Below are positions 12,591-17,358 of a stretch of DNA of 64,000 nucleotides, piece after piece. The position numbers and the translations under genes were made by a program. Numbering within the stretch: position 1 is the first letter of the stretch; each line of letters opens with the position of its first letter. Origin of the DNA: Myxococcales bacterium (GTDB lineage Bacteria; Myxococcota_A; Bradymonadia; Bradymonadales; GCA-2716585); NCBI GenBank assembly GCA_002716585.1, contig PBBL01000003.1, forward strand, positions 62,001-126,000, read 5' to 3'. The notes beneath the pieces are model-generated. The model did no database searches. It saw nothing but the letters and a program-made list of their open reading frames with translations, and was not told the origin of the DNA.

Positions 12591-13529
12591 CTACGTCACG
12601 AGGGTGAGCGCCCCCAGCCCGTCCAGCCGCTCCTGGATCTGCCTGGCCTGTCGGGCGCCGAGGCCGTTCTTGACCCGGAAGGGCAGCGCGCGCAGCTCCT
12701 CCTTGAGCGCCTTCGCCTCGCGCCCCGTGATCGACTTGAGCGCGAAGATCAGCGTCAGGTCGGCCTTGTCGAAGCCGGTGATGTACACGCTGTTGGGATC
12801 GAGCGAGGCGTCTGGAGCGGCGGCGGCTGTCGCTTGGGGGGCGCTCGCCGTCTTCTTCGCCGTGGCCGTCTTCTTCGTCGCGGCGGGGGCGGCGGTCGCC
12901 GCGGCGGGCTCCCAGGGCAGGCGAGCGCCCTGCTCGACCTCGATCATCTGGACCGGCTTGGGGCCGAGCGAGCCGCCCGGCTCCCAGGGGAGCCGCTTGA
13001 CGTCGCTCTGGAACGTCGGCGCGGGGCGCTGCAACATGGACTCGGGGCGCTGCAACATGGACTCGGAGCGCTGCAACATGGACTCGGAGCGCTGAAAGAG
13101 CGCCTCGGACCGGGTCATGAGCTGCTCCGGCCGTTGAAAGAGCGGCTCGGACCGCCCCAGGAGCGGCTCGGACCGCTCCATGAGCGGCGCGGGGCGCTGA
13201 AAGAGCGCCTCGGCCCGCCCGGCGCTCGCCCCGCCCGGCTCCCAGGGGAGCCGCGACGTCCTGGGGGGTCTCTTGCGATCCTGATCGAGGCGCTCTCGGG
13301 CCTGCTTCAGCAGCGTGGAGAGGACCTTCTTGTCGAAGGTGTCGAGGATGACCGCGTGGAAGCTCCCATCGACGAACGACTCGAGGTCGCAGCGGTAGGT
13401 GCGCTCCTTGTCGCCCCACTGATCGCCGACCACGATCTCGTCGCCCTCCAACGCGACGTATGAGGTCTTGCCCGAACCCTGAATCTCCCAACGCCACGGC
13501 TGGGTGTCGATCTGTCGCGTCACGATCAT
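12591..13529 (-). CDS. Heptad-repeat protein with LPWEP motifs and a C-terminal ribosomal L7/L12-like domain
   Basis: This 312-residue protein has no close family that I know. It has four parts. Residues 1-85 are a compact domain (PWRWEIQGSGKTSYVAL, VVGDQWGDKERTYRCDLESF). Residues 107-176 are ten tandem heptads of pattern E/A-x-L/M-F/L/M-x-R-S/P. Three copies of RLPWEP (93-98, 179-184, 203-208) flank them, with an Ala/Thr/Lys linker behind. Residues 247-312 resemble the L7/L12 C-terminal domain: FALKSITGREAKALKEEL, LPFRVKNGLGARQA and a closing LGALTLVT. The gene is transcribed away from the Nth-UNG fusion and shares a symmetrical promoter region with it. There is no signal peptide or membrane segment. 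Function is unknown; a multivalent scaffold is my inference. Confidence 0.72.
   Translation of the reverse strand: MIVTRQIDTQPWRWEIQGSGKTSYVALEGDEIVVGDQWGDKERTYRCDLESFVDGSFHAVILDTFDKKVLSTLLKQARERLDQDRKRPPRTSRLPWEPGGASAGRAEALFQRPAPLMERSEPLLGRSEPLFQRPEQLMTRSEALFQRSESMLQRSESMLQRPESMLQRPAPTFQSDVKRLPWEPGGSLGPKPVQMIEVEQGARLPWEPAAATAAPAATKKTATAKKTASAPQATAAAAPDASLDPNSVYITGFDKADLTLIFALKSITGREAKALKEELRALPFRVKNGLGARQARQIQERLDGLGALTLVT
13002..13211 (-). repeat. Tandem 21-bp repeats encoding ten heptads
   Basis: About ten degenerate 21-bp units encode heptads such as ESMLQRS, EALFQRS and EPLLGRS. The three units around 13020-13095 are nearly identical at DNA level (CTGCAACATGGACTCGG core on the plus strand), pointing to recent slippage or unequal recombination. 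Confidence 0.85.
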
Positions 13530-13665: not shown

Positions 13666-13727
13666 CTCACGCATCATTTCTCTGAGGGACCCACGCGAGC
13701 GGGTCGAGATGACGGGAGGAGGAGACC

Positions 13728-15122
13728 TTGTCGGACACCATAGCCCAGATTGACGAGATTGTTGCCCGGTTGCGCGACGCCTACCCCAACGCGACCTACG
13801 AGCTGAACTGGACCACCCCCGAGGAGATGCTGGTGGCGACCTTCCTCGCGGCCCAGACCACCGACAAGAAGGTCAACGAGGTCACCGCCTCCCTCTTCAA
13901 AAAATACCCCAACCCCCAGGCGTTCGCCGACGCCGACGTCAAGGAGCTGGAGCAGGACCTCGTCGGGGTCAGCTTCCACCGCAAGAAGTCCAAGGCGCTC
14001 AAGAAGCTCAACCAGGATCTGGTCAACCGCTTCGGCGGCAAGGTCCCCAGGGACATCAACCAGATGATCAAGCTCAAGGGGGTCGCCCGCAAGAGCGCCA
14101 ACGTCGTGCTCAACTGCTGCTTTGACATCCCGAGCGGGGTCATCGTCGACACCCACGTCAAGCGCAACTCGCCGCGCATGGGCCTCTCCACCCAGACCAC
14201 CCCCGAGAAGATCGAGCGCGATCTGATGAAGATCGTCCCCAAGGAGCACTGGACCCACTTCGGCCCGGCCATGATCATCCACGGCCGCTACACCTGCACC
14301 GCCCGCAACCCCAACTGCGCCGAGTGCATCTTCCTCGACCTCTGCCCCCGCAACGACGTCTCGGGGCGCCGCCCCGCCCTCCCCGCCGACTTCAAGTACA
14401 AGGACGGCTGGCGCTCCAGCGCCGCACCCGCCGCGAAGACCGGCGACGCAGGCGTCATCGACGGCTGGGTCGAGCACCTCGCCGAGGAGATGGACAAGCC
14501 CTACTTTCAGCGCCTCGTGGAGTTCGTCGATGACGAGCGCGGCAACCATCAGGTCTTCCCCCCCGAGGACGAGGTCTTCGCCGCCTTCTCCATGACCCCG
14601 CTGGAGGAGGTCAAGGTCGTCCTCCTCGGCCAGGACCCCTACCACGACGACGACCAGGCCCACGGCCTCTGCTTCTCGGTCCGCCCCAACATCAAGATCC
14701 CCCCGTCGCTGCGCAACATGTACAAGGAGCTCAAGACCGACGTCGGCGTCTCCCCACCCAAGCACGGCTACCTCGCGGGCTGGGCGCGCCAGGGCGTGCT
14801 GATGCTCAACACCGTCCTCACCGTCCGCGCCCACGAGGCCAACTCCCACCAGAAGAAGGGCTGGGAGACCTTCACCGATGAGGTCATCAAGCTCGTCAGC
14901 CGCGAGTGCGACCACGTCGTCTTCATCCTCTGGGGCACCTCGGCCAAGAAGAAGGCCAAGCTCATCAACAAGCGCAAGCACACCATCCTCAAGGGCACCC
15001 ACCCCTCGCCGCTGTCCGCCTCCCGCGGCTTCTTCGGCTCCAAGCCCTACTCCGAGGTCAACGCCGCGCTGCGTAAGGCGGGGCAGGCCGAGATCGACTG
15101 GGGCCAGCTCCCCACCCACTGA
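13728..15122 (+). CDS. Endonuclease III / uracil-DNA glycosylase (family 1) fusion protein
   Basis: Two complete base-excision-repair glycosylases lie in one 464-residue frame. Residues 1-215 are endonuclease III. The helix-hairpin-helix is LKGVARKSA (116-124) with catalytic K122, the catalytic Asp is D141 in VDTHVKR, and a 4Fe-4S loop is C190-X6-C197-X2-C200-X5-C206. A linker (about 215-245) leads to a family-1 UNG with the water-activating motif GQDPYH (301-306, D303), the LMLNTVLTV strand (N361) and HPSPLS (425-430, H425). All key residues are kept. The fusion would remove oxidised pyrimidines and uracil and could nick the abasic product. The start is TTG 13728, set by a strong GGGAGGAGGAGACC site; no in-frame ATG fits. 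A shared divergent promoter with a possible SOS box lies upstream. Confidence 0.93.
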
Positions 15123-15161
15123 GACCCCGCCTCATCACCACATGCGCCCCTCGCCTGAAGT

Positions 15162-15170
15162 TGCTACTAT
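15162..15170 (+). promoter_or_regulatory. Extended -10 promoter for pgm
   Basis: TGCTACTAT is an extended -10 (TGn plus TACTAT) 48 bases before ATG 15218. It has the same form as the element at 898. No clear -35 is visible. Confidence 0.4.
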
Positions 15171-15217
15171 GGCGTCGCCCACCCTTACGACGGGGCATGA
15201 CCCAAGGAGCACCACCG

Positions 15218-16858
<1,641 letters not shown>

Positions 16859-16860
16859 AC

Positions 16861-17358
16861 TCAGCAGTCGGGGTCGGGTTGGGCGCAGCCCGCGTCGCAG
16901 ATCCCGTCGCCGTACCAACCCTGCTCGGCGCAGTAGTCGCCCGAGTCGCTTGAGCCAGACCCGCTGTCACCCGAGCAGTCGGGGTCGGGCTGGGCGCAGC
17001 CCTCATCGCAGACCCCGTCGCCGTACCACCCCTGCTCGGCGCAGTGGTCGCTCTCCGGACCTGAGTCATCGCTTGGTGGGGCGCAGTCGGGGTCGGGTTG
17101 GGCGCAGTCCTCGTCGCAGAAGCCGTCTCCGTACCAACCCTGCTCGGCGCAGTGGTCCGTGGCGGGCTGAGCGCAGTCGAGGCAGGCCCACGGCGAGGGG
17201 GCCTGCGGTTCGATGAACTGCGGTTCGCCGAACAACAGCGACAGGGTCTGCTCGGTCAGGCGAGGGGTCTCGTTGAGGGGTTCGGATCCCTCTTCAACGC
17301 AGCCGCTGCACAGCGTCAGCGACAGCGCGGCGATCATGGTGAGGCGAGCGATGGTCAT
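16861..17358 (-). CDS. Cys-rich lipoprotein with three 23-residue CDxxC repeats
   Basis: This 165-residue protein has a lipoprotein signal (MTIARLTMIAALSLTLC, lipobox LCSGC) and an acidic spacer. Three copies of the unit CAEQGWYGDGxCDxxCAQPDPDC follow at residues 70-92, 106-128 and 143-165, the last one ending exactly at the C-terminus. Each unit has four Cys and a pattern that recalls Lin-12/Notch repeats (GDGxCDxxC...DxDC), which bind calcium through Asp side chains. Linkers between units are Ser/Asp/Gly-rich. The protein is expected at the cell surface or in the outer membrane. Function is unknown; disulfide-rich calcium-binding modules are my inference. Confidence 0.75.
   Translation of the reverse strand: MTIARLTMIAALSLTLCSGCVEEGSEPLNETPRLTEQTLSLLFGEPQFIEPQAPSPWACLDCAQPATDHCAEQGWYGDGFCDEDCAQPDPDCAPPSDDSGPESDHCAEQGWYGDGVCDEGCAQPDPDCSGDSGSGSSDSGDYCAEQGWYGDGICDAGCAQPDPDC
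16864..17151 (-). repeat. Three 69-bp direct repeats encoding Cys-rich modules
   Basis: Copies lie at 17083-17151, 16975-17043 and 16864-16932. They are nearly identical in DNA (for example a shared CAGTCGGGGTCGGG and GTACCA/CCCCTGCTCGGCGCAG on the plus strand), so the duplication is recent or kept homogeneous by recombination. Confidence 0.9.

Follow-up and report, generated by a model that had tools for sequence, protein, structure and literature searches.

Why does a bacterial genome encode an endonuclease III (Nth) and a family-1 uracil-DNA glycosylase (Ung) end to end in one reading frame, and what might be gained by joining them? The question is raised by a gene located at positions 13728..15122 (+ strand) of the window, i.e., the whole stretch of 64,000 nucleotides from a Myxococcales bacterium that was analysed here, which codes for 464 amino acids from a TTG start to a TGA stop. 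The answer that we favour, with a probability of roughly 0.5, is that the product would be a single-chain repair enzyme, whose Ung part is predicted to remove uracil and whose tethered Nth part is predicted to nick the abasic site.

The TTG codon is preceded by a strong Shine-Dalgarno-like stretch (GGGAGGAGGAG, 13714..13724, + strand), and the open frame begins only five codons upstream of it, so that no longer gene is hidden there. The initial annotation had described a complete Nth followed by a complete Ung, and this description is borne out by matches over the cut-offs of the Pfam models HhH-GPD (residues 36-172, 70.2 bits vs. a cut-off of 26.2), EndIII_4Fe-2S (residues 190-206, 24.2 vs. 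20.5), and UDG (residues 291-449, 69.8 vs. 24.3), as well as of the NCBIfam nth equivalog model TIGR01083 (236.2 bits, cut-off 211.7) and the ung models NF003589 (328.4 bits, cut-off 223) and TIGR00628 (273.4 bits, cut-off 185.75).

The Nth domain (residues 1-208; 13728..14351; this and the following features are all on the + strand) was delimited with TIGR01083 and with phmmer searches against solved structures, in which its best relative was the endonuclease III 1orn (E 2.3e-46), 2abk also being matched (E 1.8e-38). Its catalytic Lys122 (14091..14093), the AP-lyase or Schiff-base lysine, lines up with GVGRK in the solved enzyme, and the catalytic Asp141 (14148..14150, within VDTH) is aligned as well; the domain thus presents an HhH with the catalytic Lys and the downstream Asp that form the signature of the bifunctional glycosylase/AP lyases. 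The [4Fe-4S] cluster loop, containing Cys190/197/200/206 (14295..14345), corresponds to the match of EndIII_4Fe-2S (PF10576). An interdomain linker follows (residues 209-243; 14352..14456), recognized by its composition, mostly P/A/G/S/T plus charged and polar residues. The family-1 Ung domain (residues 244-464; 14457..15119), assigned through NF003589 and phmmer (nearest solved relative Ung 2boo, E 4.5e-79, 269 bits), retains the motif GQDPYH (residues 301-306; 14628..14645) with the water-activating Asp303, the uracil-reading Asn of the family (N361), and the motif HPSPLS (residues 425-430; 15000..15017) with His425 and with Leu429 in the intercalating position. K122, D141, the four cysteines, and the two Ung motifs had been named in the initial annotation, and all of them are present, the residue numbers given there being exact.

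The window's genome (G000) is a fragmented assembly (4.25 Mb in 91 contigs, 66% completeness), and an error of sequencing or assembly might accordingly be suspected of having joined two genes. The fused frame, however, is present in six other genomes, including the closed genome of Minicystis rosea DSM 24000, obtained by PacBio sequencing at 217x (PMC8436480); an assembly or frameshift error is therefore rejected, the frame across the junction (14390-14480), for which the initial annotation had foreseen a confirmation, is genuine, and an artefact appears extremely improbable. The linker itself points in the same direction: its G+C content at third codon positions (0.94) matches that of the Nth (0.96) and Ung (0.97) domains, so that it reads as coding, and its first ten residues have a counterpart in another genome (RKDVSGPRPA in G505).

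Altogether, the fused frame was found in seven genomes belonging to three families of one phylum (G000, G022, G025, G505, G374, G402, and G419). In the window's family, it is harbored by three of the five genomes searched (G000, G025, and G022), the G025 protein sharing 61% identity with that of the window across the whole length and the G022 protein 64% in both halves; it was not found in the 52 further genomes searched within the window's class. A sample of 379 genomes of the phylum disclosed only one further case (G374), and G402, G419, and G505 were added by searching the family of G374 (108 genomes) and that of G365 (29 genomes), with no further fusion in the whole order of G374 (184 genomes). 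G419 is the cultured isolate M. rosea DSM 24000 mentioned above, its identity being taken from the match to the published genome.

The possibility that the fusion is widely spread finds no support in the scans of plasmids, of phages, and of the best relatives of Ung. Neither the 72,556 plasmid records nor the 50,697 phage records contained a fused place (none covering 80% of the query), and the viral contigs contained a single weak Nth relative and no fusion. In the GTDB genome collection, no Nth lies within 3 kb of any of the 80 best Ung relatives, out of 328 confirmed places; these 80 places all match the Ung half, and fusions with more distant halves could escape such a search. One candidate, an Ung apparently carrying Nth remnants in G111 (match from residue 187), was discarded, since the alignment had been extended by chance and no Nth is located upstream of this Ung. 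The initial annotation had tentatively taken the architecture to be undescribed. No description of an Nth-Ung fusion was found in open-access full texts, and the architecture may accordingly be new, both domains being textbook ones; it is not unique, as it recurs in the phylum, to which most of the genomes searched for fusions belong.

The fused gene is not the only source of the two enzymes. The window's genome also encodes both enzymes as individual proteins, an Nth (C57) with 32% identity to the Nth half of the fusion and a family-1 Ung (C46) with 54% identity to the Ung half, the genes that the initial annotation had suggested looking for; in this lineage, the fusion thus comes in addition to standalone nth and ung. 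The Nth that is encoded on its own in this genome and its order falls into a clade distant from the Nth half of the fusion (branch 100/100). Also encoded are a further HhH-GPD protein (a 415-codon frame, C50) and a further UDG (C47), whose UDG domain is preceded by a Cys-rich motif. Three carriers, G374, G402, and G419, yielded no family-1 Ung match at E <= 1e-60 other than the fused one, and the fused enzyme presumably handles the general uracil repair of these organisms.

Where the fusion may have come from is indicated by a second arrangement. Head-to-tail nth-ung pairs are located at nine loci (G380, G403, G443, G444, G445, G446, G447, G505 C72, and G506), one of them in the genome matched to that of Sorangium cellulosum So0157-2 (G444; PMC3696898). 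In all nine pairs TGA is the stop of nth, and an ATG or GTG in the frame of ung lies 1-8 bases further on; moreover, the Sorangium-like pairs contain, within the last nth codons and at the position where a ribosome-binding site of ung would be expected, a AAGGAAGGGG-like stretch. Such pairs (e.g., in G444) comprise the same two gene subfamilies as the fusion, in the same order, and differ from it in encoding two proteins, with the TGA and a few bases between them. The flanking genes are reshuffled between families, to the extent that the nth-ung unit is essentially the sole shared part, and no operon partner is conserved from one family to the next. The only genomes with a glutathione S-transferase gene close to the locus are G025 and the Sorangium-like ones, at about 35% identity (L160:8563-9255, - strand; L247:9344-10084, + strand). 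In some close relatives (e.g., G369, G371, G340, and G293) nth and ung are unlinked, and their linkage is therefore inessential.

A maximum-likelihood tree was built for each half, and in the trees of both halves the fusions fall into separate groups. The first clade embeds G000, G025, G022, and G505. G374 and G419 join each other in the Nth tree and are apart, and weakly placed, in the Ung tree. G402 is the sister of the paired G403 (99/94 for Nth and 100/100 for Ung); these two organisms belong to the same genus and carry the genes at the same locus (L250 and L251:2066-4321, respectively), with a MurD-like gene after ung in both. In G403, no stop codon ends the ung frame, which continues into the MurD-like gene and might represent either another read-through fusion or an error in the sequence. 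The grouping of all seven fusions in one clade is rejected by the AU test (p = 0.00014 for Nth and p = 0.00117 for Ung), and one clade without G402 is tolerated (p = 0.09 and 0.10 for the two halves); hence, judging from these trees, the state of the locus, pair or fusion, changed at least two times and probably three. In some lineages the change may have been a fission.

The linkers are in agreement with separate fusions, given their dissimilarity between groups. Three kinds can be distinguished, 28-81 residues long and made up for 78-93% of small, Pro, or polar/charged residues; they are rich in Pro, Ala, Ser, Thr, and charged residues and without evident similarity from one group to another. 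In the first clade the linker start is shared, i.e., the stretch of the window's protein that corresponds to RKDVSGPRPA of G505. In G374, a Met is retained directly before the Ung domain, at the site where a paired ung would start, and the G402 fusion, with a linker of 58 residues, retains the CPKLNL tail of the unfused nth of G403. It is most likely that the ancestor of the fusions was a head-to-tail nth-ung pair of the same phylum, in which the nth stop would have been lost and the linker would have grown, more than once. G505 harbors both the fusion (L253, C130) and a separate head-to-tail pair (L254, C72), and because this distant family with a pair of its own has a fusion that groups with the window's family, a horizontal transfer of the G000-type fusion to G505 is suggested.

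Conserved adjacency and repeated fusion argue for some benefit of linking nth and ung, whose nature may be considered on the basis of the known chemistry. It is known that the activity of Ung leaves an abasic site in DNA, and that oxidised pyrimidines are excised by endonuclease III, whose Lys also serves in the cleavage of abasic sites. In the proposed mechanism, where both activities are assigned on family knowledge, the C-terminal Ung would take uracil out of DNA and the endonuclease III at the N-terminus, attached through a flexible tether some 35 residues long, would nick the resulting abasic site by beta-elimination; the latter half would also excise oxidised pyrimidines on its own. Such a tether could span about 100 angstroms, with both domains reaching one site. 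The functional gain that we infer from the repeated linkage, and that the initial annotation had offered as one possibility, is that Ung passes the abasic site on to Nth, the simplest benefit of this kind; matched expression would predict the same gene pattern, and a gain from coupled expression, or from repairing deaminated and oxidised pyrimidines together, is possible. Glycosylases are reported to form long-lived complexes with their abasic product (PMC7465369), from which a benefit for a hand-over would follow. The more inclusive proposal, namely a natural channelling enzyme from uracil to nick that was assembled more than once in the Myxococcota from a conserved nth-ung pair and that provides some species with their only family-1 Ung, might be right with odds just short of even.

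An AP lyase might also be needed if AP endonucleases were absent, an idea that finds no support, as an Xth-type AP endonuclease is present in 13 of the 15 genomes searched, which carried the pair or the fusion or served for comparison; the two genomes in which it was not found are the incomplete G000 (66%) and G403 (81%). The presence of Xth in nearly all the genomes checked implies that the tethered AP lyase is not the sole route for the site. Matches to the AP_endonuc_2 family were patchy across these genomes.

The same gene pattern might be accounted for by co-expression without channelling. According to this hypothesis, which is quite possible even though we would rather bet against it, the translationally coupled pair from which everything started, and then the fusion, would keep at equal amounts two glycosylases that work on deaminated and oxidised pyrimidines without depending on each other, the fusion itself being neutral. 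The spacing of 1-8 bases between the nth TGA and the ung start, together with the AAGGAAGGGG-like stretch, does give the pairs the look of translational coupling; the linkers are long and variable, without a conserved interface, and the fused G402 and the paired G403, close relatives at the same locus, indicate that both states are tolerated. On the other hand, the locus switched between the two states at least twice, and probably three times, which seems more than the neutral loss of a stop codon would readily produce. We retain the hand-over of the abasic site as the preferred explanation.

The two halves of the window's protein are not equally conserved. Among the positions that are nearly invariant in relatives, 64/64 are kept in the Ung half and 66/72 in the Nth half, K122, D141, and the four Cys being among the latter. 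Three of the six deviating positions are residues 80-82, which lie next to the lesion-reading loop and beside the position aligned with the intercalating Leu of solved endonuclease III; in view of these deviations, the substrate range of the window's Nth half may have shifted. A more radical possibility is that this half changed role, becoming a DNA-binding or Fe-S damage-scanning arm that aids Ung, with a reduced or altered glycosylase activity. The six altered positions, with their cluster at 80-82, might fit such a change, as might the Nth branch, which is longer than in any of the other three fusions of the same clade (0.41 vs. 0.26-0.33). Nevertheless, K122, D141, and the cluster Cys are retained, the nth equivalog cut-off is still passed, and the other six fusions exhibit 0-3 such deviations; a changed role is thus improbable, and the two-enzyme chain remains the preferred reading.

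The comparison with known systems delimits what is peculiar to the fusion. With endonuclease III (HhH-GPD superfamily, TIGR01083) it shares the full domain, the catalytic Lys and Asp, and the [4Fe-4S] loop, and it differs in the C-terminal linker followed by a complete Ung and in its Nth subgroup, to which the standalone Nth of its own genome does not belong. With family-1 Ung (TIGR00628/NF003589) it has in common the full domain, GQDPYH, HPSPLS, and the motif Asn, whereas an N-terminal endonuclease III stands in place of the short N-terminus. The USER-type reagent mixes (Ung plus an AP lyase) perform the same chemistry, i.e., uracil removal followed by AP-lyase nicking; they are, however, laboratory mixtures without a covalent link, in which the lyase is endonuclease VIII rather than endonuclease III. 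Ada-AlkA and other fusions of repair domains, whose halves are elsewhere separate and sometimes encoded by overlapping genes (PMC1839093), involve other enzymes, and none of them joins Nth and Ung.

The direct hand-over of a toxic abasic site by a glycosylase has so far been argued mostly from transient complexes. A single chain with both predicted activities, existing beside unfused relatives, makes the question testable by comparing the tethered with the untethered enzymes, and a cultured carrier, M. rosea DSM 24000, is at hand for this comparison. That related bacteria paired or separately fused the two genes suggests that linking the two repair steps is worthwhile, and the fusion is also a possible one-protein reagent for uracil excision.

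Concerning the genes adjacent to the fusion in the window, a phosphoglucomutase/phosphomannomutase gene lies close downstream on the same strand (15161-16858, + strand); since it is not near the fusion in relatives, it is probably functionally unrelated. Directly divergent from the fusion gene, a 312-aa protein without a Pfam match is encoded at 12591-13529 (- strand), which contains about ten imperfect seven-residue repeats (of the LFQRPEQ, LMTRSEA, and MLQRSES type) and three copies of LPWEP. Further downstream, at 16861-17358 (- strand), a probable lipoprotein of 165 aa carries three near-identical Cys-rich repeats (DHCAEQGWYGDGVCDEGCAQPDPDC).
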